Source of the DNA: a virus
IMG/VR virus record: IMGVR_UViG_3300042301_002397
Span: 1 to 43,200 of that record
Reading direction: 5' to 3' (one strand)
DNA: 43,200 nucleotides
Shown: positions 1 through 11,616 of the stretch, in pieces
Numbering within the stretch: the first letter of the stretch is position 1
Layout: each line of letters opens with the position of its first letter
Program-made: the position numbers and the translations under genes
Notes under the pieces: generated by a model
What the model was told of the DNA's origin: nothing
The model's database searches: none
Seen by the model: the letters and a program-made list of their open reading frames with translations, nothing else

Positions 1-120
1 CCGACATCGTCAACGGATTTCGCGTTTTTTTTCAGATATTTTTTTTGCGTTTGCGCTTGACAACCGGCCTGGAGTCAAGGAAAAAAGCGTACAAAAAAGA
101 AAAATTTTTCTACAAAAAAA
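1..120. promoter_or_regulatory. Upstream half of regulatory module copy 1
   Basis: Non-coding stretch with two T8 tracts (A8 on the minus strand), an inverted repeat CTTGAC...GTCAAG around 56-77, and the palindrome GAAAAATTTTTC near 100-111. The order T8-spacer-T8, GCGTTT, CTTGA, GTC, AAAAA is also seen at about 890-960, so this is a diverged copy of the same element. It probably lies upstream of a minus-strand gene that continues left of the window. Function is inferred. Confidence 0.4.
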
Positions 121-122
121 GC

Positions 123-151
123 TTGACGTGGCGAGCAAAACATGGTAGACT
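123..151 (+). promoter_or_regulatory. Sigma70-type promoter, copy 1
   Basis: TTGACG at 123-128, a 17-nt spacer and TAGACT at 146-151, preceded by TGG as in an extended -10. The second copy at 1000-1028 keeps the -35, the spacer length and the -10 block, while the spacer start differs, which is what selection on a promoter would leave. It points along the plus strand, antisense to the neighbouring small genes. Confidence 0.6.
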
Positions 152-156
152 TACAA

Positions 157-185
157 GGTGGGGGGACCCCCCCTTCCCCCCCACC
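157..185 (+). ncRNA. G/C hairpin at the predicted 5' end of a short RNA
   Basis: GGTGGGGGG at 157-165 can pair with CCCCCCACC at 177-185. It starts about six bases after the -10 of the promoter at 123-151, so it would sit at the extreme 5' end of the transcript. The equivalent hairpin follows the second promoter at 1035-1060. The complementary strand has two G7 runs. Whether it makes a stable RNA, or what it does, cannot be told from sequence. Confidence 0.4.
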
Positions 186-197
186 TGTAACTCTATA

Positions 198-237
198 GGC
201 TGTACTAGTACAACCGAGGCGCTATACTAGTACAACC
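198..237. repeat. Two tandem TGTACTAGTACA-type stem-loops
   Basis: Two adjacent imperfect stem-loops (198-215 and 221-237) share the core TACTAGTACAACC, and a third decayed copy follows at about 244-256. Related perfect hairpins lie at 1099-1118 and 1463-1482. In the minus direction they fall just after the stop codon of the gene at 250-438. Confidence 0.5.
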
Positions 238-249
238 GGGGGCGATATA

Positions 250-438
250 TTAGTACGTCTGCATATTATATAACTTGTTTAACAATTCGGTATTTCTAAC
301 AATAGCTTCTTGCCAATATAACTTACTAGTAATGTCATTCGTTTTTTCGCAATTTTTAACAATTTCATCCATCTTATCTATCTTATCCATTAAAGCGATA
401 CGAAGGGTGGCGAGTTCGTTGTTGTTAATGTCTTTCAT
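250..438 (-). CDS. Small helical protein, paralogue A
   Basis: A 62-residue protein I do not recognise. It is rich in charged and hydrophobic residues in a helical pattern, with LR near residue 12 and a C-terminal LLNKLYNMQ. It resembles the products of 1249-1440 and 1498-1701, which have the same LR...L arrangement near the start and an MLN/LLN-type end, so the three look like a small family, probably two-helix hairpins. It is the third gene of a minus-strand set (656-844, 447-611, 250-438) with a gap of eight bases after the previous stop. Stem-loops follow its stop. No enzyme motif, signal peptide or membrane segment is visible. Confidence 0.65.
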   Translation of the reverse strand: MKDINNNELATLRIALMDKIDKMDEIVKNCEKTNDITSKLYWQEAIVRNTELLNKLYNMQTY

Positions 439-446
439 ATTGTTAT

Positions 447-611
447 TTAATTAAGGTGTTCGACGATATTGTATGTACCAAAAGGATCGAGCTTCAAACA
501 ATTATTAAACAGTTCGTAAGCTTCATCAATTGACTTGAGGTCACGCTTGAGAATAAGCTTCCACACATTATTCTCAAAGATCTGTACGTTGTATGTAGAA
601 TAGAATTTCAT
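447..611 (-). CDS. Small hypothetical protein, 54 residues
   Basis: Hand translation of the minus strand gives an intact 54-residue frame from ATG at 611 to TAA at 447, beginning MKFYSTYNVQIFENN and ending GTYNIVEHLN. The segment LKSIDEAYELFNNCLKLDPFGTY resembles a single TPR-like helical hairpin (DEAYELFNNCLKLDP), though one repeat is too little to assign. It fills the space between two other minus-strand small genes with no wasted sequence, which supports it as real. Partner and function are unknown. Confidence 0.6.
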   Translation of the reverse strand: MKFYSTYNVQIFENNVWKLILKRDLKSIDEAYELFNNCLKLDPFGTYNIVEHLN

Positions 612-655
612 GTATTAAAAAAAGGTTATTGTAGTATTACTACTACTGTTGTTGT

Positions 656-844
656 TTAGTACTTCCTGTTGAACTCCAATTCGTACATCTCGCGAGAGAA
701 CTTCGCAGTGACCGCCTCGCACTCATCTTCCGTGAGTTCCCGATTCAGCACCTTGCTGAATGCGCTGGTCACATAAGCGACCGTTGAAGTACCGCCGCAC
801 ACTTCGATGTCCAGCAGATCCGACCATTTGATTTCGTTTTCCAT
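656..844 (-). CDS. Small acidic hypothetical protein
   Basis: A protein of about 62 residues starting MENEIKWSDLLDIEV and ending MYELEFNRKY. I chose the ATG at 844; a TTG at 850 in the same frame would add two residues. The middle has AYVTSAFSKVLNRELTEDECEAV, a helix-turn-helix-like alternation without enough signal to call a DNA-binding motif. It is the first gene downstream (minus direction) of regulatory module copy 2, and an A8-GTA-A8 tract lies about 45 bases upstream of the start. Function unknown. Confidence 0.6.
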   Translation of the reverse strand: MENEIKWSDLLDIEVCGGTSTVAYVTSAFSKVLNRELTEDECEAVTAKFSREMYELEFNRKY

Positions 845-999
845 GCCCAAAGATTAGACGAAAGGCTGAGATTCGTCCACATCTTTCGTATATTTTTTTT
901 ACTTTTTTTTGAGCGTGGACCTGGCGTTTACACTTGAAATCTTCGCGCGAAGTCGAGAAAAATCGTGCGAAAAAAGACGATTTTTTTCTGAAAAAAGTG
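845..999. promoter_or_regulatory. Upstream half of regulatory module copy 2
   Basis: Contains the paired T8 tracts at 893-910, the 12-base palindrome CTTCGCGCGAAG near 939-952, and an AT-rich stem (AAAAATCGT with ACGATTTTT) around 958-985. The order of elements matches 1-120. It lies between the minus-strand gene at 656-844 and the plus-strand promoter at 1000-1028, so it probably controls one or both directions. Confidence 0.4.
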
Positions 1000-1028
1000 T
1001 TGACAACCATCGCGAAACATGGTAGACT
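1000..1028 (+). promoter_or_regulatory. Sigma70-type promoter, copy 2
   Basis: TTGACA at 1000-1005, 17-nt spacer, TAGACT at 1023-1028 with TGG in front. The block AACATGGTAGACTTACAA is identical to copy 1. The consensus -35 and exact 17-base spacing make this the better of the two. It reads away from the gene at 656-844 and antisense to the genes at 1131-1701. Confidence 0.65.
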
Positions 1029-1034
1029 TACAAT

Positions 1035-1060
1035 GAGGGGGGACCCCCCCTCTCCCCCCC
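1035..1060 (+). ncRNA. G/C hairpin after promoter copy 2
   Basis: GAGGGGGG at 1035-1042 is followed by two C6-C7 runs able to pair with it (1044-1050 and 1054-1060), giving alternative stems. It is followed by CCTGTAACTCTATA, identical to the sequence after the hairpin at 157-185. Probable 5' structure of a short plus-strand transcript; role unknown. Confidence 0.4.
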
Positions 1061-1098
1061 GCCTGTAACTCTATACGCTATACTACTATAAGGAATCA

Positions 1099-1118
1099 GG
1101 GCTGTACTACTACAGCCC
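1099..1118. repeat. Perfect 8-bp stem-loop GGGCTGTA-CTAC-TACAGCCC
   Basis: Perfect inverted repeat in the 3' region of the minus-strand gene ending at 1131. A nearly identical hairpin lies at the same place after the gene ending at 1498. There is no strong U run on either strand, so it may be a weak terminator, a processing site or an RNA-stabilising 3' structure. Confidence 0.55.
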
Positions 1119-1130
1119 CGACTATTGTAT

Positions 1131-1232
1131 TTACTTAGCCTTGTGGTCTCTAATGATATCCACACCTATCACACAGATAGTGATACAGATAGTGATACAG
1201 ATGAGCGCCGCGTTTGATATATGTATGTCCAT
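1131..1232 (-). CDS. Putative 33-residue membrane microprotein
   Basis: Hand translation of the minus strand from ATG at 1232 to TAA at 1131 gives 33 residues: a short polar start, a hydrophobic run ALICITICITICVIGVDII and a charged tail RDHKAK. This is the pattern of a single-pass membrane peptide. The hydrophobic run is coded by a threefold near-repeat of AGTGATACAGAT (plus-strand reading, about 1178-1201), so it may have grown by slippage. It sits between the gene at 1249-1440 and the hairpin at 1099-1118. It could be a chance frame, but its snug fit in the gene row argues for it. Confidence 0.45.
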   Translation of the reverse strand: MDIHISNAALICITICITICVIGVDIIRDHKAK

Positions 1233-1248
1233 GTTATTATATATATTA

Positions 1249-1440
1249 TTACAATCCCTGCATATTATTAAGTAGATTAGTATAGTAATCCAGGTCTCTT
1301 ACATACTTAATTGTACCGGCCTTATCACTATTAGCTATTGCTCTATCTATACGGTGTTCTAACTCATGCTTCATTCCTATTACTAGAACGCGTAGGTTAC
1401 TATAATCAGTAGATGTCAATTGTACTTTGTTGTTATTCAT
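1249..1440 (-). CDS. Small helical protein, paralogue B
   Basis: A 63-residue protein with LRVLVIGMKHELEHRIDRAI in the first half and LDYYTNLLNNMQGL at the end. It aligns by eye with the product of 1498-1701 (LR..LE.RM.EL..RID) and more weakly with that of 250-438 (LLN.MQ end). Probably a two-helix hairpin. It lies in a minus-strand row with 1498-1701 upstream and 1131-1232 downstream. The conserved hairpin at 1463-1482 separates it from the upstream gene. No catalytic motif; function unknown. Confidence 0.65.
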   Translation of the reverse strand: MNNNKVQLTSTDYSNLRVLVIGMKHELEHRIDRAIANSDKAGTIKYVRDLDYYTNLLNNMQGL

Positions 1441-1462
1441 GTTGTTATATAGTTATTGTAAA

Positions 1463-1482
1463 GGGCTGTGCTAACACAGCCC
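1463..1482. repeat. Perfect 8-bp stem-loop GGGCTGTG-CTAA-CACAGCCC
   Basis: Perfect inverted repeat between two minus-strand genes, 15 bases after the stop at 1498. The flank TGTTGTATTACC matches the flank of the hairpin at 1099-1118 (TATTGTATTTAC), so the repeat unit is larger than the stem. The base changes between the two stems are compensatory (A-T to G-C), which supports selection on the RNA fold. Confidence 0.55.
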
Positions 1483-1497
1483 CTGTTGTATTACCTG

Positions 1498-1701
1498 TTA
1501 TTTAAGAGTTACGTAAGAGCAAGCGTTTAACATATTTTGCATTGCAGTCGCCTCATTTAAATCCATTTGAAATAGATTAGCAGTACCGGGCAAGTTAATG
1601 TGATGACAATCGTCAATGCGCTTTTGTAGTTCGGCCATACGTAGTTCTAGACCTTGGCGCAATTGGATGATTTGATTTACAGAAAGTGTTTGTTGTGACA
1701 T
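1498..1701 (-). CDS. Small helical protein, paralogue C
   Basis: A 67-residue protein beginning MSQQTLSVNQIIQLRQGLE with the core LELRMAELQKRIDDC and a second helix ending MQNMLNAC. It matches the product of 1249-1440 in length, in the LR...RM.EL..RID core and in the MLN end, so the two are paralogues. It follows the 1734-1904 gene on the minus strand after 32 bases. It resembles the many short uncharacterised proteins of phage early regions, some of which bind host proteins, but nothing here shows a target. Confidence 0.65.
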   Translation of the reverse strand: MSQQTLSVNQIIQLRQGLELRMAELQKRIDDCHHINLPGTANLFQMDLNEATAMQNMLNACSYVTLK

Positions 1702-1733
1702 ATTGTTATTGTATTAAAGTTGTTGTTGTTGTG

Positions 1734-1904
1734 TTAGATGTTGTCGACGTATTCAACAAGGCGATCCCATGCCGCTTCGACTTCGTCGAATTGAGCGGAA
1801 ACCATGTCGAACCATGCGTTCGCTTCGGTGATTTCTTCGAAGCTCAGGGTGATCATGTCGCTCATGTTGCTCTCTGCGCTGATGTTGGCGAATTCGTTTG
1901 TCAT
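1734..1904 (-). CDS. Small acidic hypothetical protein, 56 residues
   Basis: Hand translation of the minus strand from ATG at 1904 to TAA at 1734 gives MTNEFANISAESNM at the start and AAWDRLVEYVDNI at the end, 56 residues, strongly acidic and helical (SFEEITEANAWFDMVSAQFD). An AAGG lies about 9 bases before the ATG. An A8-GTG-A8 tract lies about 40 bases upstream, like those before 656-844 and 1959-2198. Codon use is GC-rich and like its neighbours. A plus-strand frame over the same bases (1686-1922) is its shadow. Function unknown. Confidence 0.6.
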   Translation of the reverse strand: MTNEFANISAESNMSDMITLSFEEITEANAWFDMVSAQFDEVEAAWDRLVEYVDNI

Positions 1905-1958
1905 GGTGTTACCTTAGTCTAGTTGGCGTTTTCTGTCTACTTTTTTTTCACTTTTTTT

Positions 1959-2198
1959 TCAGACCTCAACCATCGTTCCGTTGTTGTTGCGGAAGTAGCT
2001 TCCGCTGCTGCTGCGCTTTGCAAGCGGGGCGAAGTCAACCGTTTTCGCAGGAACCGTCACGCTGATGTTGGCGATTGCTTCCGCCTCAGTCTTGCCGTGT
2101 GACACGCCAGTCGTGCCGTCCGCGTTGCGGTACGTCACGCCAACCAGCGCAACCGTCTTGAACTTGCTCACCTTCAGAATCACAATCTCGTTTTGCAT
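1959..2198 (-). CDS. Small basic hypothetical protein
   Basis: About 79 residues from ATG at 2198 (MQNEIVILKVSKFKTVALVGV). In-frame starts at 2204 (ATG) and 2213 (GTG) would add two or five residues. The centre reads VTYRNADGTTGVSHGKTEAEAIANI, a beta-turn-beta-helix pattern with the G-x-T-x-x-E-A-x-x-N form of small HicB-like or double-stranded-RNA-binding-like folds; this is only a suggestion. The end is polar (KRSSSGSYFRNNNGTMVEV). An A8-GTG-AGA7 tract lies about 40 bases upstream. It is the first gene of the minus-strand row. Confidence 0.6.
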   Translation of the reverse strand: MQNEIVILKVSKFKTVALVGVTYRNADGTTGVSHGKTEAEAIANISVTVPAKTVDFAPLAKRSSSGSYFRNNNGTMVEV

Positions 2199-2213
2199 GT
2201 ACATACAATGCAC

Positions 2214-2543
2214 GAAATTTTGCAGGTCGTCAATTTTTATCTGCTTTTTTTCTCACTTTTTTTTGATGGCCTGGCCGCAGTAGATTGGCACACATCCTGC
2301 TCCCAGCACACACCGTGCCAACCCCCCCCCATTTTTCAAAAAATTTAGACCTTGACATTTTGGGACTAGGGGGGAGGGGATTAATCTCATTCTCCCCAAT
2401 GCACAAAACTAAGCCCCCATTCTCACCTAACTTCCTAAATACATAAACATCTATCTATATATGTTCTATTCATGTATATGTATAAATATGACCATGCCCC
2501 CCATTTTTAGAAAAAAAAGAAAAAGGTGTTTCTCTAAATGCAT
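2214..2543. other. 330-base gene-free spacer between small-gene region and endonuclease gene
   Basis: Holds a paired A-tract on the minus strand (about 2245-2264), a long-range inverted repeat TTGGCAC/GTGCCAA (2284-2320), a run of nine C (2322-2330), a G-rich stretch GGGGGGAGGGGATTAATC (2370-2387) that can pair with CTCCCC at about 2391-2396, then AT-rich sequence with repeated ATATATG/CATGTATATG. I found no open frame, tRNA-like fold or U-tailed terminator in it. It marks the change from GC-richer to AT-rich sequence. Confidence 0.5.
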
Positions 2544-2915
2544 TCATATACAAAAATCGGGAACGATGTTTTTCGAAGATTCGCCTTGTAGATATATCAT
2601 TGCTTTTTTCAAAATCTCTATATCATCATAAAATCGCCCAATACCTAAATTACAATTGTTACATATATATCCTCTAAAGTTGTGCGAATAATGACAATGG
2701 TCTAATATCCATTTTTCTGTATATACATTACAAATCGGGCAAAATCCTGAAATTGGGGGTGGATTTTCGATTCGTAATTTGTTTCTTAACTTTGATAATT
2801 TACCGCTGCAAATCTTACATGTATTTTTGCGCCCACATTCTGATGTTGAAAAATACGGATATTCATCTATATTTTTAATTTCACCACAATTTCGACATTT
2901 TTTGGAAACCACCAT
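2544..2915 (-). CDS. Recombination endonuclease VII-like (HNH/zinc) nuclease
   Basis: A 123-residue protein with the signature of the T4 endonuclease VII family, which cleaves Holliday junctions and branched DNA before packaging. Residues 59-62 form CPIC, 72-75 DHCH, 81-82 RG and 85-89 CNNCN, followed by LGIG..YDD...LKKAMIYL. The two CxxC pairs hold the structural zinc and DHCH carries the catalytic Asp/His. An additional N-terminal Cys set (C7, C10, C27, C33, C36) looks like a second zinc ribbon, often seen in phage homologues. It is divergent from the PhoH-like gene across only 30 bases. On its strand, TATAATAAATAA runs directly up to the ATG, resembling the AT-rich motif seen before late genes. 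Confidence 0.9.
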   Translation of the reverse strand: MVVSKKCRNCGEIKNIDEYPYFSTSECGRKNTCKICSGKLSKLRNKLRIENPPPISGFCPICNVYTEKWILDHCHYSHNFRGYICNNCNLGIGRFYDDIEILKKAMIYLQGESSKNIVPDFCI

Positions 2916-2945
2916 TTATTTATTATAATACAACATCTACTTAAG
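2916..2945. promoter_or_regulatory. 30-bp divergent intergenic region
   Basis: Only 30 bases separate the start codons of the divergent endonuclease and PhoH-like genes. The sequence TATTATAATA at 2921-2930 reads as a TATAATA-type element on both strands. Any promoter here would give a transcript with almost no leader, or the plus-strand genes are transcribed from farther left. The minus-strand reading resembles the motif before 11648 and 18708. Confidence 0.4.
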
Positions 2946-3665
2946 ATGAAACAAAAGAAAAAAGACGAATCTCAAAAGATAGCACAAAGAGAAAAAATCA
3001 AAGACTCTTTAAATGTGAGATCGTTAAAATGGACTGAAAAGCAAAAACAGTTTATCGAATTAGCGACAAATAAAGATACTCGTATTATATTTGTAAATGG
3101 CCCCGCTGGCACTTCTAAAAGTATTATTGCGACTTATGTATCATTGTTATTGTTGAATGATAAGAAAGTGTCTGATATTATATATGTTCGTTCTGCTGTT
3201 GAAAGTAGCGACAGTAAAATTGGATTCTTGCCTGGAGATGCAAGTGAAAAGTTGCAATTCTACAATTTGCCATTTTTGGAAAAGCTAGATGAATTGTTGT
3301 CTCGCGCCGAAGTTGATAAATTGGAAAAAGAAGAGCGGATTTCGATGTATCCAATCAATTATGCGCGAGGTATGAGTTGGGCGGCAAAATCTATTATTCT
3401 CGACGAATGTCAAAACAGCACGAAAAAAGAAATAATCACAGTTCTTACTCGTCTAGGTGAATTTAGTCGTTGTTTCGTTCTTGCTGATCCTATGCAAACA
3501 GATTTGCCATCTAATAAAGCTGGCGGCTTTGAAGATCTGTTTCATTTATTCTCTGATGAAGACAGTAAATCTATGGGTATTTATACGTTTACATTCGACG
3601 AAGAAGATATTGTAAGATCCAAAATTGTAAAATTTATTGTTAATAAACTAAAATCTTCAAAATAA
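2946..3665 (+). CDS. phoH: PhoH-like ATPase
   Basis: A 239-residue protein with the P-loop of the PhoH family: GPAGTSKS at residues 52-59 (Walker A), the family mark KIGFLPGD at 91-98, and SIILDECQN at 149-157 (Walker B). The family is common in marine and other environmental phages; cellular homologues are predicted ATPases linked to phosphate starvation or RNA metabolism, and the phage role is unsettled. The N-terminal 25 residues are Lys-rich. The P-loop reads GTSKS where GTGKT is usual, which is seen in some phage members. First gene of the plus-strand row. Confidence 0.93.
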   Translation: MKQKKKDESQKIAQREKIKDSLNVRSLKWTEKQKQFIELATNKDTRIIFVNGPAGTSKSIIATYVSLLLLNDKKVSDIIYVRSAVESSDSKIGFLPGDASEKLQFYNLPFLEKLDELLSRAEVDKLEKEERISMYPINYARGMSWAAKSIILDECQNSTKKEIITVLTRLGEFSRCFVLADPMQTDLPSNKAGGFEDLFHLFSDEDSKSMGIYTFTFDEEDIVRSKIVKFIVNKLKSSK

Positions 3666-3682
3666 ACACTGTATAATATGTT

Positions 3683-4078
3683 ATGAAGATATACTGCCAA
3701 AAATGTGGGTCGCCGCACGAATCGGCTAATAAACCGAATTTCTGCTTTAATTGCGGAAATTCTTTCGGGATAAAATCTGTGGCATCTTCACCTGTGCAAA
3801 GTAAACAATCGCCGAAACCCATACGGTCGCAATATCGATCTTCAGCAGAAGAAGATGATTATGACGAAGACGAAGATGGATCGCCGATAAACACAGATTT
3901 GGCATTTAGCGCTTCTAAGTTAGATGTTGAAATTGAAAAAGATCATAACTCAACAATAAAAATTGAAAACGTTATTGGATCTTCAACAGGCGGCGAAGTT
4001 TTCCAAAGAAACAATGAAAATGGCGGATATTCAATGGACGATTTTAGAAGAGAAGCAGGTTCGATTAAAAAGCAATAA
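3683..4078 (+). CDS. Zinc-ribbon protein with disordered acidic tail
   Basis: A 131-residue protein. Residues 5-24 form C-x2-C-x12-C-x2-C (YCQKCG ... FCFNCG), a classic zinc ribbon. After it come a Ser/Pro/Gln-rich linker, an acidic tract (about 56-66, EEDDYDEDEDG) and a low-complexity C-terminus. It overlaps the next gene by one base, so it is probably co-expressed with the sigma-like factor. Such phage zinc ribbons may bind RNA polymerase or nucleic acid, but no specific function can be read. CTGTATAATATG stands just upstream of the start. Confidence 0.75.
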   Translation: MKIYCQKCGSPHESANKPNFCFNCGNSFGIKSVASSPVQSKQSPKPIRSQYRSSAEEDDYDEDEDGSPINTDLAFSASKLDVEIEKDHNSTIKIENVIGSSTGGEVFQRNNENGGYSMDDFRREAGSIKKQ

Positions 4079-4767
4079 TGAAAAAGAAACAGTCATCGCC
4101 TTCTTTCGAAGAATCGATAAGTATTATCGATAACGAAATAAGCAAAAGAAGGAACAAATGGAATCTATCTAGCCTAACTTGGATAGATTTTGATGACGTA
4201 TCACAAATCATTAGAATTCATATTTATAAAAAGTGGCATCTTTATAATCCTAAACAGCCTTTGGCTCCTTGGGTAAATAGAATAATATCAAATCAGATAA
4301 AAAACTTAATTCGTAATAATTATCTGAATTTTATAAAGCCGTGCGCCCAATGTCCAGAATCTGAACCTGATGAAGGATGCAAGAAGTTCGGAAAACAATG
4401 TTCGGATTGTCCGTTGTTTAAAGAATGGGAAAGAAACAAAAAGCAAGCATATAATTTAAATATGCCCATTCCTTTCGAGTCTTTGGAAAATTGTTTAGAC
4501 ACAAGTTATCGCGACTCTATTGACATCGACAAGTTTAAGTTGGATTTAGACATCAAGATGAAAGGGTTTTTAAAACCTTTAGAATGGAAATTGTATGAAA
4601 TGTTGTATATCAAGAAAATGACGGAAAAACAAGCGGCTAAAAAAATGGGTTACAAGAGTACAGAAGAAAATAGAAACCCTGGGTATAAGCAGATAAAGAA
4701 TATGCAAAAAGCCATTATAAAAAAGATAAAGATAAGTATTCATAACGGAGATATAGACGTTTACTAA
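4078..4767 (+). CDS. Sigma-like transcription factor with internal Cys cluster
   Basis: A 229-residue protein with the layout of a sigma70-family factor. Residues 35-82 (WIDFDDVSQIIRIHIYKKW...PLAPWVNRIISNQIKNLIR) match region 2: an acidic DD followed by a helix, then a W/R/N helix. Residues 165-212 form a region 4-like helix-turn-helix (LEWKLYEMLYIKKMTEKQAAKKMG). Between them is a Cys cluster, C89, C92, C101, C108 and C111, probably a zinc knuckle. Phages use such factors to direct host RNA polymerase to late promoters. The GTGTAA motifs before downstream structural genes are candidate targets, by inference. It overlaps the zinc-ribbon gene by one base and is followed by the next gene after one base. 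Confidence 0.75.
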   Translation: MKKKQSSPSFEESISIIDNEISKRRNKWNLSSLTWIDFDDVSQIIRIHIYKKWHLYNPKQPLAPWVNRIISNQIKNLIRNNYLNFIKPCAQCPESEPDEGCKKFGKQCSDCPLFKEWERNKKQAYNLNMPIPFESLENCLDTSYRDSIDIDKFKLDLDIKMKGFLKPLEWKLYEMLYIKKMTEKQAAKKMGYKSTEENRNPGYKQIKNMQKAIIKKIKISIHNGDIDVY

Positions 4768-4768
4768 T

Positions 4769-5848
4769 ATGTTAACCGAACAACAACAAAATGTTATTGT
4801 CGATGAATGGAATAATCGCCCTGATGATCCTCCTTCTTTAATAGAGTTAATTAAAATAGCATATCCAAATCAGCCAGAGTTAGATGGTCGTTGTAAAGAA
4901 GGTAAATATGTTCAAGCGTTTTTAGCGAAAAAAAGTTTAAAAGCAAGAGGCGCTCATGAATATAAATCAAAAAAAGCGCCCGATATTTCGGATGAAAATA
5001 GACAGTTTATTTTAAACAACGCCAAAACGATGAAGGCGTTAGAAATAACACGAATTATCTTTGACAATCCCACATTGTCTAATTTAAACAACGAAACTAG
5101 AATTGTCGCCAAATTTATATCTGAGAACGTGCTTCCAGCAGAAATTTATAAAGAACAAGAAGAAATAGCTCAAGAAGATTATGTATCTCCTCGATCTTTA
5201 GACAAAGCGATAAATAAAGTTAATAGATATGTATATGATTTAAATTTAAAACGCGAAACTTTAAACTCTAGACATAAAAGAGATTTAGAATGTTTATTAA
5301 AGTATATCAATACTTATAGATTCGTGCATCAAATTAATTCTTATGATGGTAATGTAGATAGAGATCTTTTTGAAAGTTCTTTCGTTCGTTATACATATGA
5401 TAAAAATGATCTTACAGAAGAAGAAGTAGATCAATATATTATATTAGCGTCAGAAGTAGTTATCGCTTCTAGCATACAAAGAAGAGTTGAGAAGTTGCAA
5501 AGGTTGTTAGAAGGAGCAGCGGACAACGATGCGAGAATTTCGATGGGTTTAGTCGAATCTATAAATACCGCACAACAAGAATATAATCAATGCGTCGGTC
5601 GTCAGCAAAAACTTGTTAACGATCTTAAAACAAAGCGTTCTGATAGATTGGGAAGTCAAATCAAACAAAATGCTAGTATTGTTAATCTTATTCAAGCTTG
5701 GAAAGAAGAAGAATCTAGAATAAAGATGATCAAATTGGCTGAAATACGCAAAGCGACTTTGGGAGAAGAGATATCTAAGCTAGAAGGCATGGACGAATTA
5801 AAGTGCCGTATATTAGGTATTTCTAAAGAGGAGATATTAAATGGTTAA
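4769..5848 (+). CDS. Hypothetical protein, small-terminase candidate
   Basis: A 359-residue, largely helical protein I do not recognise by motif. The N-terminal 60 residues (LTEQQQNVIVDEWNNRP...LIELIKIAYPNQPELDGRCKEGKYVQAFL) could form a helix-turn-helix with the look of DNA-recognition domains in small terminase subunits. The C-terminal third is a probable coiled coil (about 235-340). Its place, one gene before the ERCC4 nuclease and two before the large terminase in an overlapping row, fits a packaging role. The overlap of 8 bases with the next gene includes its ribosome site. The assignment rests on context and is uncertain. Confidence 0.4.
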   Translation: MLTEQQQNVIVDEWNNRPDDPPSLIELIKIAYPNQPELDGRCKEGKYVQAFLAKKSLKARGAHEYKSKKAPDISDENRQFILNNAKTMKALEITRIIFDNPTLSNLNNETRIVAKFISENVLPAEIYKEQEEIAQEDYVSPRSLDKAINKVNRYVYDLNLKRETLNSRHKRDLECLLKYINTYRFVHQINSYDGNVDRDLFESSFVRYTYDKNDLTEEEVDQYIILASEVVIASSIQRRVEKLQRLLEGAADNDARISMGLVESINTAQQEYNQCVGRQQKLVNDLKTKRSDRLGSQIKQNASIVNLIQAWKEEESRIKMIKLAEIRKATLGEEISKLEGMDELKCRILGISKEEILNG

Positions 5849-6770
5849 TTGCAAATTTTGTAATAAAGATTTTGATAACGATAAAAGTCTACATGCTCAT
5901 TTAAAGTCTCATAAAATTTCAGTGGGTGATTATTATCAACATTATTACCCTCGTAAAGACTTGTTAACTGATGAGCTTATTGAATTCAAGAATAAAGATC
6001 AATACTTTGATTCTGATTTTAACTCGAAAATAAACTTTAAAAAATGGGCGAAAACCTCTGATCCTAAGATGGTCGGAGATTATTGCAAAGGGTTGCTGCA
6101 AAAACGTCAAGAAAAGAAGAAGTCTATATATCCATTCTCTCAAGTAGAGTTAAAGTCTTCTGGAATTCCTAGCATTAACTTTTTAGAGACCGTTATCGGT
6201 GATTATTATGATTACTGCGACAATAATGGTTTTGAAAAGAAGTTTTTAAATCCAAAAAATTTACTTCTAATTGATTCAGTAAAGGATGACTATTGCATTT
6301 ATGTAGACACAAGAGAACAAAAGCCTTTAGAGTTTTCTAGATTAACTCAAGTAAAGAAGTTGAACTTCGGCGACTATTGTTTTGAGAATTTGGATGTATC
6401 AGGAAACACTTTTATCGAAAGAAAGTCGCTTAAAGACTTTATTGGAACTTTGGCCGGGGGATACGACAGATTTTGCCGAGAGATAGAAAGAGCCGCTGAG
6501 AGCAATAGTTCTGTTGTTGTGGTGGTTGAGAATGATTTGGCGACGTGTTTAAGATTCAATTATCTTCCGTATATTGCTAGAAACACAAAAGTCAATCCTG
6601 ACTTTATCTTCCACAAAGTCCGGTCGTTAATGACATTGTACAAGAACGTGCAGTTTTTATTTGTAGATGGTAGAGAAGAATGCGTAAGAGTAATAGAAAA
6701 AATCTTTATCAATAAAGATATATCATTAAATTACGATCTTCAGCTATTATATGATATAGAGAAGTTATGA
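5841..6770 (+). CDS. C2H2 zinc-finger ERCC4-type nuclease
   Basis: A 309-residue protein combining two recognisable parts. Residues 4-24 are a C2H2 finger (C4-x2-C7-x12-H20-x3-H24) followed by YYQHYYPRKD, a pairing also seen in other phage proteins. Residues about 150-285 are an ERCC4/XPF nuclease: VDTREQKP (155-162), GDY (177-179), and the catalytic ERKSLKDF (193-200). XPF-family nucleases cut branched or flapped DNA. The gene overlaps the next, the large terminase, by an ATGA, so translation is probably coupled. The finger may direct it to DNA structures or a packaging complex; that is inference. GAGGAG lies at a good distance before the start. Confidence 0.88.
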   Translation: MVNCKFCNKDFDNDKSLHAHLKSHKISVGDYYQHYYPRKDLLTDELIEFKNKDQYFDSDFNSKINFKKWAKTSDPKMVGDYCKGLLQKRQEKKKSIYPFSQVELKSSGIPSINFLETVIGDYYDYCDNNGFEKKFLNPKNLLLIDSVKDDYCIYVDTREQKPLEFSRLTQVKKLNFGDYCFENLDVSGNTFIERKSLKDFIGTLAGGYDRFCREIERAAESNSSVVVVVENDLATCLRFNYLPYIARNTKVNPDFIFHKVRSLMTLYKNVQFLFVDGREECVRVIEKIFINKDISLNYDLQLLYDIEKL

Positions 6771-8593
6771 TTTACTGCCCTGAAAAGTATAAAGGAACCT
6801 TTACTGATCTAAATCAAGAATATAAACTTCTTAAAGGAGAACTTGATGATAAAGAAGCTCGTATTACTCTCGCGAAGTTTCTAAGAAACAATATTGGCTT
6901 TACAACTGAGTTGTTGTCAGGAATAAAACTCGCTCCTTATCAAGAAATGATTCTCAAAGGAATGATGAATCGTAATTTTTGCTTGAATGTACTTGGTCGT
7001 GGTTGCGGCAAAAGCTTTTTAGGCAGCGTTTTTTGTTTTCTTCAATGTGTATTTGAGCCTAACACAAAAATATTAATTGCCGGTCCTACGTTTAGAACTG
7101 CGCGTTTTATTTTTAATTATTTAGAAAAGATCGTCGATTCAAAAGGCGGCGAACTTCTTCAACAAGCTTTTGGCGTGAAAGCTAAACGAAACGATCAATA
7201 TGAATGGCAAATTAATGGAGGGTCCATTACAGCTATTCCTCTTAATGGAGAAAAGATTCGTGGTTTTCGCGCCAATATTCTTTTATTAGACGAGTATCTT
7301 CTATTGCCTGAAGATATTATTAAAAATGTATTGATGCCATTCCTTGTCGCTCCTCAAAATATGAAAGAGCGCATGGAGATAAGAGAAATTGAAGATAATT
7401 TGATTAAAGAAGGACATTTGACTGAAACAGAAAGAATGGTGTTTCCAAACACGTCGAAAATGATAGCTCTTTCTTCAGCTTCTTTTACATTTGAGAATTT
7501 ATATAAAACTTACAAAGAGTGGAATGATAAGATTTATTCTAATGAAGATGGCGAAGCTAAATATTTTATAGCTCAAATGGGTTATGAAGCTTTGCCGAAA
7601 CACATGATTGACAACACTGTTATTGAGGAAGCTCAAAATGGTGGCACTTCTCATAGTTCGTTTTTACGAGAGTATTGCGCTCAATTTACAGATGGTAGTG
7701 ATGGATATTTCAGCGCAAAAAAGATGCATGAATGCACAATTCCAGATGGAGAAGCTCCGTACACTTTGATTAGAGGAAAATCTAATGCTAAATATATTTT
7801 AGGAATCGATCCTAGTTTTTCTAATAGCCCAAGTTCTGACTATTTTGCTATATCTGTTTTCGAATTAGACGAAGAACGTAAACAAGGAACATTGGTTCAT
7901 GGATACGCTGTTGCTGGTGGTAATTTAAAGTCTCATATTACTTATTTATACTATTTGATGAAGAGCTTCAATGTGATTATGATTTGTATCGATAATGCAG
8001 GATATCAATTTATTGATAGTGCAAAAGAAAGCGAATTGTTTAAAAAATCCAATATCAATTTAGAGTTTTTTGAATCTGATACTTGTCTTGAAGGAAACGA
8101 ATATATATCTATGACTCGTAAGGCCGCAAGAGACTATAATGTGGAAAAAGGCGCGATTTGCTTTAAACAAAATTTTACGACAGACTTTCTTCGTAAAGCA
8201 AACAATTACTTGCAAGCTTGCATTGATCATAAAAAAGTTTGGTTCGCGTCTAGAACTTCTGCTAACAACGAAGCTTTTGATATACAAAGTTCTTGTCATG
8301 TTAATTTAGATAACGTCGGGCATGAATCTGTTTTAGATTTCATCGAATTCCAAGATAATATCATATATCAAACGAAAAAGCAGTGCGCGTTAATAGAAGT
8401 GAGATCTTCTGCCAAAGGATCTCAGTCTTTTGACTTGCCTCAACATCTAAAAAGAGACATGTCTCCCAATAGAGCTAGAAAAGATAATTACACAACTTTA
8501 ATGTTAGCAAATTGGGCTACAAAGTTTTATTTTGAACTTGAAGCTTCATCAAAAATTAAAGAAGTGTGTACTTTTTCGCCAAGAATGATATAA
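6767..8593 (+). CDS. terL: Terminase large subunit
   Basis: A 608-residue protein with the two domains of the DNA-packaging motor. ATPase: Walker A GRGCGKS (77-83), Walker B ILLLDE (171-176), coupling motif SSAS (236-239). RNase H-like nuclease: GIDPSF with D348, a second acidic strand ICIDNAG with D409, and a late RARKDNYTTLMLANW segment supplying the third acidic site (near 575). It pumps DNA into the prohead at the portal and cuts the concatemer. Size and order fit T4/marine-phage type large terminases. It starts inside the nuclease gene stop (ATGA), and the downstream gap of 19 bases carries a GTGTAA motif. Confidence 0.95.
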   Translation: MIYCPEKYKGTFTDLNQEYKLLKGELDDKEARITLAKFLRNNIGFTTELLSGIKLAPYQEMILKGMMNRNFCLNVLGRGCGKSFLGSVFCFLQCVFEPNTKILIAGPTFRTARFIFNYLEKIVDSKGGELLQQAFGVKAKRNDQYEWQINGGSITAIPLNGEKIRGFRANILLLDEYLLLPEDIIKNVLMPFLVAPQNMKERMEIREIEDNLIKEGHLTETERMVFPNTSKMIALSSASFTFENLYKTYKEWNDKIYSNEDGEAKYFIAQMGYEALPKHMIDNTVIEEAQNGGTSHSSFLREYCAQFTDGSDGYFSAKKMHECTIPDGEAPYTLIRGKSNAKYILGIDPSFSNSPSSDYFAISVFELDEERKQGTLVHGYAVAGGNLKSHITYLYYLMKSFNVIMICIDNAGYQFIDSAKESELFKKSNINLEFFESDTCLEGNEYISMTRKAARDYNVEKGAICFKQNFTTDFLRKANNYLQACIDHKKVWFASRTSANNEAFDIQSSCHVNLDNVGHESVLDFIEFQDNIIYQTKKQCALIEVRSSAKGSQSFDLPQHLKRDMSPNRARKDNYTTLMLANWATKFYFELEASSKIKEVCTFSPRMI

Positions 8594-9764: not shown

Positions 9765-11616
9765 AATGAAATCAAAACTTAAATCTCAAGAAATAGAGCC
9801 TTTGATGGTTTCGACAGCTTCTTCTAACACAAGCATGAGAAGAAACAAGGCTGGATCTATAGAAAGAACAGACAAGTTTAAAAATATTGATGACGGATTG
9901 ATGCCGTTTAAATATACTCGTACTAATTTCGCGGACAGAAGTACAATTGACATTAAAGATGCTACTATTTTATGTCAAAAAGCTTATTATAATTTTGCTC
10001 AATTTAGAAACGTTATTGATTTGATGACGGAATTTTCTGTTAGCAATTTATATTTCCAAGGAGGAACAAAAAAAGCGCGAGATTTCTTTCAAGCATTATT
10101 TAATAAGATTAATCTTTGGAGTTTTCAAGATAGATTTTTTAGAGAATATTACCGTTCAGGAAATGTATTTATTTATCGCTTCGACGGAATTCTGCAAGAA
10201 GAAGATACAAATAGGCTTGTTCAATTGTTAGGAAAAGGACCATTAAATACTTCTAATGTTAAAATTCCAGTTCGTTACGTTATTATAAATCCAGTTGATA
10301 TTCAATTTTCTAGCGGTACATCTTATCTTACTGGCAAATATTATAAAGTTCTTAGCGAATATGAATTAAGCAAATTAAGGGTTATTACCACAGAAGAAGA
10401 TCAGCAAATTTTCGATAGTTTCGACGCTGAAACTCAGAGACTTATAAAAACTTCTAAGATCGGTTCTTTGAGAATTGTTCTTGATCAAGAAAGATTTACA
10501 TCTGTATTTTACAAAAAGCAAGATTATGAACCTTTCGCTGTCCCTATGGGATATCCAGTTCTTGAAGATATTAACTTTAAAGCTGAGTTAAAGAAGATGG
10601 ACATGGCTATTGCTCGCACAATGCAGCAAGCCATTTTGTTGGTTACAATGGGCGCTGAACCGGAAAAAGGCGGCATCAATCAAAAGAATCTAGAGTCGAT
10701 GCAAAAGTTATTTGAAAATGAATCTGTTGGTCGTGTTCTTATTGCTGATTATACTACTAAAGCTGAATTCGTGGTTCCTAAGATTGCTGACTTATTAGAT
10801 CCTAAGAAATACGAAACAGTCAATAACGACATTAACCTTGGTCTTAATAATATTTTAGTCGGAGGAGAAAAATTCTCTAATCAAGAAGCTAAAATAGAAG
10901 TGTTCTTAGCGAGATTAAATCAAGGTCGCCAAGCTTTCTTGAATGACCTTTTAATTCCAGAGATAAAGAGAATATCTAAAGCTCTTGGATTTAGGGGATA
11001 TCCTGTTCCTTATTTTGAAGAAGTAAACTTGAAAGACAACACAACTCAAAATCGTGTTTATACAAGACTTTTGGAGCTTGGCGTTCTTACTCCAGAAGAA
11101 ACTCTCAAGGCAATCGAAACTGGTGTGCTTCCAGATTTAGAGTCTTCTGTCGAATCTCAAAGAGCGGCTAAGACTTTAAGAGACGAAGGACTTTACGCTC
11201 CAATTATTGGCGGAGCTAAATCTGCTCCAGAAGCAGGAAGACCAGCAGGAACAACAAAGATTAAACAACAAGTTAAAGCTGAAGAAAACGCTTATAGCTT
11301 TACGAACGCTTATAGCTTTACAAAGATAAAAGAAAATATCTTTAAATTTCAGCAGCTTCAAGGTTCAGTAGAAGGCTTTTTAAAGAAGAAGCATAATAAG
11401 AAAAAATTAAATGATAGTCAAAAACAAATTGCTGAAGAGATTTCTAAAATAATTATAGCAAATGAAGTCTCGGAATCTTGGGATCAAAACGTCGAAAAAT
11501 ATTGTAATAATCCTATAGATTCAAATGCAACTAGAATAAACGAGATAAATAATATTGCAGTTGAGCATGGGCTTGATCCATTTATGGCGTCAATTTTATT
11601 AAATAGTAAATTATAA
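9745..11616 (+). CDS. Portal protein
   Basis: A 623-residue protein placed two genes after the large terminase. Features expected of portal proteins are present: an N-terminal wing/clip segment with FRNVIDLMTEFSVSNLYFQGG (about 90-110), FREYYRSGNVFIYRFDG (about 135-150), and a central crown-side stretch NINLGLNNILVGGEKFSNQEAKIEVFLARLNQGRQAFLNDLLIPEIKRI, which resembles portal stem helices. It would form the dodecameric ring through which DNA enters. The C-terminal 150 residues are an extra Lys-rich, helical extension after an Ala/Gly/Pro linker, with a tandem NAYSFT duplication. An alternative ATG lies 21 bases downstream. Assignment rests on size, order and these segments. Confidence 0.85.
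   Translation: MFSPSDKMKSKLKSQEIEPLMVSTASSNTSMRRNKAGSIERTDKFKNIDDGLMPFKYTRTNFADRSTIDIKDATILCQKAYYNFAQFRNVIDLMTEFSVSNLYFQGGTKKARDFFQALFNKINLWSFQDRFFREYYRSGNVFIYRFDGILQEEDTNRLVQLLGKGPLNTSNVKIPVRYVIINPVDIQFSSGTSYLTGKYYKVLSEYELSKLRVITTEEDQQIFDSFDAETQRLIKTSKIGSLRIVLDQERFTSVFYKKQDYEPFAVPMGYPVLEDINFKAELKKMDMAIARTMQQAILLVTMGAEPEKGGINQKNLESMQKLFENESVGRVLIADYTTKAEFVVPKIADLLDPKKYETVNNDINLGLNNILVGGEKFSNQEAKIEVFLARLNQGRQAFLNDLLIPEIKRISKALGFRGYPVPYFEEVNLKDNTTQNRVYTRLLELGVLTPEETLKAIETGVLPDLESSVESQRAAKTLRDEGLYAPIIGGAKSAPEAGRPAGTTKIKQQVKAEENAYSFTNAYSFTKIKENIFKFQQLQGSVEGFLKKKHNKKKLNDSQKQIAEEISKIIIANEVSESWDQNVEKYCNNPIDSNATRINEINNIAVEHGLDPFMASILLNSKL
11287..11322 (+). repeat. 18-base tandem duplication inside the portal gene
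   Basis: Two consecutive 18-base units differing only at the last base (AACGCTTATAGCTTTAC plus G or A). They encode NAYSFT twice, in frame, at the start of the C-terminal extension. Recent slippage product. Confidence 0.85.

Follow-up and report, generated by a model that had tools for sequence, protein, structure and literature searches.

What two non-coding modules at the left end of a viral genome are for, when the promoters predicted in them point against the genes around them, is the question raised by this locus. The DNA analyzed here (the window) is an entire virus record of 43,200 bases, whose nearest relatives are solely environmental contigs (L numbers below). No DNA match to its bases 1–8000 was found among 50,697 named phage records, and its large terminase shares at most 26% identity with named phages among the 20 of 38 matches listed, none of which is a T4-type phage. 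Protein comparison gave PhoH and sigma-factor matches; a rightward gene block, which comprises a PhoH-like protein, a sigma-factor-like protein, and the terminase, begins at 2946, and the region before it is occupied by small leftward early genes, one of which encodes a recombination endonuclease VII-like protein. A tRNA search of the window returned none. The window is an uncultured tailed phage, and its small leftward genes are early genes.

The cores of the two modules lie at 123–197 and 1000–1075 on the plus strand (Table 1). The original prediction held that both share an ordered list of parts, and all of these parts are present; the alignment between the two modules spans 134 nt at 78% (E ~1e-22), and the repeat families D1 and D2 within them are 83–90% identical. 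The whole-record search for the shared sequence that had been suggested located AACATGGTAGACTTACAA solely at 139–156 and 1016–1033 (up to three mismatches), with a chance expectation of 0.11 and two occurrences reached in 1 of 100 shuffles. A run of at least five G beside a run of at least five C is likewise found at just two places in the 43.2 kb, both of which are these modules. The GCGTTT listed among the parts is present in both, but it is a weak shared part because it sits within the poorly aligned stretch between two promoters. Both modules are among the three TG-extended promoter matches in bases 1–3000, and the promoter of module 2, with 10 of 12 matches, is tied for best in that region; as 17 promoter-like sites were found there vs 8.7 expected, the promoter scan of bases 1–3000 is weak on its own. 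The small stem-loops, which had been counted as a part of the module, sit where early genes end (3′); similar ones recur in further gaps, and they are therefore not module-specific.

Stem-loops of the form GGGCTGTA-N4-TACAGCCC, mostly without a U-run, follow early-gene stop codons at 198–238, 1099–1118, and 1463–1482. A protein reading of module 1, in an ATG frame running from AACATG to the TAG in GTAACTCTATAG, was considered and rejected; the same frame in module 2 ends at a TGA after five codons.

Table 1. Predicted features of the two modules and their neighboring genes (window coordinates).
Feature	Position	Strand	Basis or context
Module 1, start of minus-strand promoter: TTGACG (13–8), with upstream A-tracts (T8, 25–46)	8–46	−	Read directly
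Module 1, A/T-tract UP-like element of the plus-strand promoter	79–122	+	Read from sequence
Module 1, sigma70-type promoter TTGACG-N17-TAGACT, TG before −10 (TTGACG at 123; TAGACT at 146, preceded by TGG)	123–151	+	Promoter pattern
Module 1, G/C hairpin GGTGGGGGG..CCCCCCCACC and second C7 tract (order G6-A-C7-TT-C7)	157–185	+	Predicted RNA 5′ end
Module 1, GTAACTCTATA	187–197	+	Right arm of imperfect dyad with TAGACTTACA (146–155)
Small stem-loops, TGTACTAGTACA type	198–238		3′ end of gene 250–438 (−)
Early gene, 62 aa	250–438	−	3′ end points at module 1
Early gene, 62 aa, MENEIKWSDLLDIEV..	656–844	−	Predicted to be driven by the module 2 leaderless promoter
Module 2, leaderless promoter: TGGACG (879–874), N17, TAATCT (856–851), N6, ATG (844–842)	842–879	−	
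Module 2, A-tracts (T8-AC-T8 on plus) upstream of the leaderless promoter	893–910	−	Sequence
Module 2, A/T-tract UP-like element of the plus-strand promoter	955–999	+	Read from sequence
Module 2, sigma70-type promoter TTGACA-N17-TAGACT, TG before −10 (TTGACA at 1000; TAGACT at 1023, preceded by TGG)	1000–1028	+	Promoter pattern
Module 2, G/C hairpin GAGGGGGGACCCCCCCTC and second C7 tract (order G6-A-C7-TCT-C7)	1035–1060	+	G/C-run scan, folding
Module 2, GTAACTCTATA	1065–1075	+	Sequence
Small stem-loop GGGCTGTACTACTACAGCCC	1099–1118		3′ end of ORF 1131–1232 (−)

The T8 tracts had been assigned to the plus-strand promoter; viewed from the minus strand, they are instead the A-tracts of a leaderless promoter, in which A8-N-A8 lies directly upstream of TTGAC(-like)-N17-[TC]ANNNT-N6-ATG. 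Leaderless starts of this pattern occur in the window at 844, 1904, and 2198, i.e., three on the minus strand within the first 2.3 kb vs two on both strands of the remaining record. The minus-strand gene of module 1 falls beyond the window edge, with the T tracts and TTGACG alone inside, and the arrangement cut there stands complete in L027, L180, and L183. Since the T8 tracts serve the opposite-strand promoter, the module is a divergent promoter pair, and the cassette as a whole is a predicted divergent promoter pair placed between two early transcription units. Its plus-strand promoters are followed by the 3′ ends of minus-strand ORFs. In early genes of the window, L027, L086, L180, and L183, which appear to start without a leader, 5–7 nt separate the end of the −10 from the ATG; A-tracts lie upstream, and a CCAGG box is often found still further up.

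The modules had been regarded as a duplicated pair; they prove to be members of a recurrent cassette, of which the relatives add 21 copies in the same direction as those of the window, together with one convergent copy. L180, for instance, holds seven same-facing copies and one that faces them. All 23 cassettes face against the early genes, as had been claimed for the two in the window. Pattern scans of viral contigs yielded L016/L085 (one contig), L027, and L086, and a further copy was found in L095; these carry the version of the window, referred to as type A, with TAGACT as the −10 (nine cassettes: two in the window, one in L016, two in L027, three in L086, and one in L095). A fragment at the extreme end of contig L094 is additional to the nine. 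Type B, which was found through a search with a conserved early protein (18 loci), has the same layout and a different −10 and hairpin; its 14 cassettes (L176, one; L178, two; L179, one; L180, seven; L183, three) consist of TTGAC-N17/18-TACAAT (13/14; TACACT in 1/14) followed by C- and G-runs, frequently with a GGGGTATCCC-AAG-GGGATACCCC hairpin ahead of these runs. The two types are distinct sequences that are both compatible with a sigma70 −10 at 17–18 nt spacing, and the predicted cassette promoters have −35 and −10 elements near consensus, 16–18 nt apart. A/T tracts upstream of the −35 are found in other cassettes as in the two modules. A leaderless start lies opposite 19 of the 23, at 35–123 nt measured from −35 to −35; the four without one are module 1 (gene off the contig, TTGACG kept), L180-16677, L180-11773, and L183-10637. 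Relatives of the gene at 656–844 adjoin the cassette in type A and type B alike. In L180, where 8 of 10 promoter matches scoring at least 10/12 are cassette promoters, an extra sigma70-type promoter of opposite direction runs into one of the cassette hairpins, so that this hairpin has promoters on both sides.

The list of 23 cassettes was chosen by promoter pattern, and its promoter conservation is therefore partly built in. When 14 contigs were scanned for neighboring G and C runs irrespective of promoters, 22 of 32 clusters lay directly after TTGAC-N16-18-TANNNT; L024, L023, and L187, three of the 14, had no such clusters. Of the other ten clusters, five are a PhoH-proximal element at ~9842–9844 (in L180, L183, L178, L176, and L190), one abuts the edge of its contig (L183 13067), and the remaining four lack a sigma70 promoter (two in L172, one in L030, and one in L180). 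Those at L180 ~17957 and L172 ~11013 sit at the meeting point of rightward and leftward genes. The L172 copy is the same as that of L095 and was counted once, and L164 corresponds to L030. Long unbroken C-run/G-run tracts, as in L183, may have been altered by assembly; L180 has the same cassettes with interrupted tracts, and hence the element is not an artefact, though the tract lengths may be.

Several candidates were set aside. L099 contains a different element and was left out of the count, and the L084 match, inside coding sequence, is due to chance. A host or prophage copy was rejected, as the sole match among genome contigs (L087) sits in a putative methyltransferase-like coding stretch with the rest of the module missing. 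Eight of ten contigs from one pattern match were chance by context; among these ten, the element is present solely in L164 and L172.

The strongest evidence comes from four cassette positions, recognized by their flanks and neighbor gene, which are occupied by type A in some phages and by type B in others. At position 1, the window and L183 agree at 112 of the 126 bases aligned between −122 and the −35 element and diverge thereafter; L086 and L183 are alike in 102 of 114 at position 3, and L027 and L183 in 107 of 121 at position 4, with position 2 being weaker (69–81 of 84–110 aligned, many gaps). On the 3′ side of the −35, alignments of type A with type B mostly collapse, the C/G runs giving some matches (e.g., 42/57). 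None of the six contigs with at least two cassettes is mixed (type A: window 2, L027 2, L086 3; type B: L178 2, L180 7, L183 3). As the flanks are alike up to the −35 and the types are unmixed within a contig, the −10 and hairpin block has been replaced or homogenized as a unit. Architecture, orientation, recurrence, and block exchange of the hairpin type are features of these cassettes as judged from their sequences. What is conserved is the predicted promoter together with a stable hairpin, rather than the hairpin sequence, and it is the type exchange that argues most strongly for this. Such exchange amounts to a natural experiment at matching positions, in which a predicted promoter and a highly stable G/C hairpin persist while the hairpin sequence does not, and suggests that the cassette has a real job in early infection.

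The original prediction further proposed a reversed sigma70 promoter followed by a structured RNA. This arrangement is well supported at the sequence level, as its layout is kept in the 9 type A and 14 type B cassettes in different sequence. The RNA may act as a regulator, or the act of transcription or the hairpin itself may be what counts. The 80 nt after the −10 have a mean predicted folding energy of −40.9 kcal/mol in 24 cassettes vs −12.9 kcal/mol at 44 other promoter matches in the same contigs, two of which fold as stably as the weakest cassette. In comparison with dinucleotide-preserving shuffles, which retain much of the G and C runs, type A shows a modest excess (z −0.24 to −3.07, n = 8), and the type B values are mixed (z −0.67 to −4.56, n = 8). 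The type B hairpin beside the −10 shows two double compensating changes, derived from two distinct sequences, a value equaled by shuffles in 134 of 500 cases. Given the mixed z-scores and compensating changes within reach of shuffling, the G/C hairpin is credible as a modeled RNA fold without being proved. The customary distance from −10 to start places the RNA start at the left arm of the hairpin or no more than a few bases away; for type B, such a start would leave a portion of the first small hairpin upstream. The claim that the product is non-coding is reasonable because no ORF in the transcribed direction is common to the copies: some of the cassettes compared have plus-strand ORFs, none at shared positions. 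Rfam covariance models at gathering score gave no match in the window, L086, L095, L027, or L016.

We propose, as the likeliest if tentative reading, that the cassette is a boundary element between early units, which would make a short hairpin RNA and stop transcription. Its left half, a leaderless sigma70-type promoter with A-tracts, would start the next early gene, and its right half, a second sigma70-type promoter, would run in reverse into the 3′ end of the gene before it, yielding a short RNA whose 5′ end would coincide with, or directly adjoin, an exceptionally stable G/C hairpin. Host polymerase would presumably use both promoters early, the backward transcript would be short and non-coding, and opposed transcription together with the G/C hairpin would halt polymerase between the units, thereby preventing upstream transcripts from entering the next leaderless start. 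The placement of the cassette, where one early unit stops and the next leaderless unit starts, fits such a boundary, as do the versions lacking a sigma70 promoter in L180 and L172, which sit where converging genes already imply opposed transcription, the TTGGCAY-N6-KGCW sites of type B described below, which point at the hairpin from its other side, and the L180 hairpin with sigma70-type promoters on both sides. Against it, intrinsic terminators with a U-run are absent at the G/C hairpins, terminator-like sites in bases 1–3000 of the window (two) are at chance level, and the folding in excess of shuffles is modest or mixed, as given above. Moreover, an ordinary U-tract terminator already ends the preceding gene at L180-12168 and L183-11034, so that a second stop is not obviously needed there. 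A plain insulator would also need no uniform hairpin type within a genome.

The last point makes a trans-acting small structured RNA the main rival, since a plain boundary needs no single hairpin type per genome. Several copies per genome would supply an abundant RNA, protected by its 5′ hairpin, that binds a phage or host factor with which the type co-evolves. The uniformity of the six multi-cassette contigs, despite flanks that are alike between types, favors this explanation, together with a hairpin that begins at or beside the predicted RNA start, the two double compensating changes seen in that first hairpin of type B, and z-scores down to −4.6. However, the type A and B sequences are unrelated, the G/C tracts differ freely in length, just two distinct sequences supply the compensating changes, which shuffling also reaches, Rfam matches are lacking in the five contigs searched, copies without a promoter exist, and gene conversion alone could yield uniform types; overall, we consider a trans-acting RNA somewhat unlikely. 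Type exchange and uniformity also supply the chief hint that a partner is shared. The specific version in which the backward promoters make one genome-specific G/C-hairpin RNA with a partner in trans, the whole set switching by gene conversion when the partner changes, is rather less likely still. RNA-based anti-CRISPRs (Racr, solitary repeat units) are short phage-encoded hairpin RNAs (PMC10651486). The RNA predicted here would resemble them as a short hairpin RNA from a phage, but each contig has several hairpins, and their tract lengths and sequence vary, unlike a mimic of one CRISPR repeat.

It is distinctly unlikely that the cassette acts as a DNA-level site, in which the G/C palindrome (in type A with TAGACTTACA/TGTAACTCTA arms) would form a cruciform, triplex, or operator that the promoter exposes or reads. 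The outer dyad is kept in six of nine type A cassettes (in L095, G-C replaces A-T), the three-tract designs G-C-C, C-G-G, or G-G-C are compatible with triplex DNA, and dyads without a sigma70 promoter exist in L172 and L030. The outer dyad is broken, however, in the other three (L027a, L086b, and L086c), and the type B arms are unrelated, which makes a sequence-reading protein unlikely; the promoter is, in addition, still kept in 22 of the 32 clusters. Hairpins as recognition elements are familiar from the virion RNA polymerase of phage N4, whose promoter hairpin lies upstream of the start and for which −35/−10 elements are unneeded. The cassettes share with N4 a few early promoters with a hairpin, but their hairpin begins downstream of a complete −35/−10.

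Arbiol (in 2010) and Comeau (in 2014) reportedly described promoter early stem-loops (PeSLs) as mobile regulatory cassettes of T4-type phages. A PeSL combines a host-type early promoter for the downstream gene with an adjacent stem-loop terminator of the upstream gene. By analogy, PeSLs are the nearest known kind: the cassette, too, is a repeated intergenic unit of stem-loop and predicted early-gene promoter among small early genes, and a leaderless sigma70-type promoter lies beside 19 of 23 cassettes. PeSLs occur in several copies between small variable genes; the cassettes are repeated and exchange type at the same positions. In contrast to PeSLs, each unit here has an extra opposite-facing promoter with a G/C hairpin, its gene promoter is of the leaderless kind, and the stem-loops present include G/C ones that have no U-run; in addition, a single hairpin type is used within a genome, and the type is swapped from one genome to another. 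The stem-loop and early promoter units between small early genes of T4-type phages are proposed to serve gene shuffling (PMC4503421). Because they are short and repeated and carry predicted promoters, the cassettes may double as recombination joints for early-gene exchange, as proposed for PeSLs. That they are mainly such joints, with a backward RNA of no strong regulatory role, is improbable: small early genes flanked by cassettes and an exchange breakpoint near the −35 agree with it, but the keeping of a wrong-facing, near-consensus promoter in unrelated sequence versions stays unexplained. T4 R-loop origins likewise place a promoter beside an unusual sequence, and the cassettes have a promoter followed by a G-rich stretch and, in the window, a GC-skew sign change near 3000, yet transcription-primed replication origins are highly improbable given the copy number (seven same-facing and one convergent in the L180 early region), the placement at gene boundaries, the absence of cassettes from the ~40 kb of rightward genes in the window, and the absence of an unwinding element downstream.

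A description of the backward promoter and G/C hairpin arrangement was not found in searches of openly licensed papers. Repeated, putatively regulatory cassettes with a conserved predicted backward promoter exist in a group of uncultured phages, and the block exchange of the hairpin at matching positions makes the role of opposed promoters and G/C hairpins at phage gene boundaries testable in reporters. Contigs end at or beside cassette G/C runs in L174, L175, L181, and L094, and cassettes lie near the ends of L179 and L183, which suggests that they break metagenome assemblies; as several contigs stop at cassettes, such regions may be under-represented in databases.

Ten of the 14 type B cassettes carry a further site, TTGGCAY-N6-KGCW, which lies on the opposite side of the hairpin and is directed toward it. 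This site occurs 97 times in 28 contigs with a gap of 6, compared with 0–8 times for any other gap between 3 and 11; shuffled contigs gave 0 to 0.15 occurrences each. The sites, found at 2285–2321 of the window, in L095 (4208–4413 and 5627–5665), in L180 (9848–17900), and in L183, mostly form inverted pairs, close to the early/late junction and next to cassettes of type B. Their spacing and letters are those of a sigma54 −24/−12 promoter; it would be unusual for a phage to use, oppose, or titrate host sigma54.

Adjoining module 2, the ORF at 1131–1232 (minus strand) encodes 33 hydrophobic residues, likely a small membrane protein, and a 31-residue counterpart lies next to the cassette of L016. 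Between the early region and PhoH, a conserved non-coding block, C6-7 ATTTTTCAAAAAATTT..GGGGGGAGGGGATTAA..TTCTCCCC, occupies 2322–2400, near the sign change of the GC skew (~3000), and is present at the same place in L006, L016, L027, L030, and L094.
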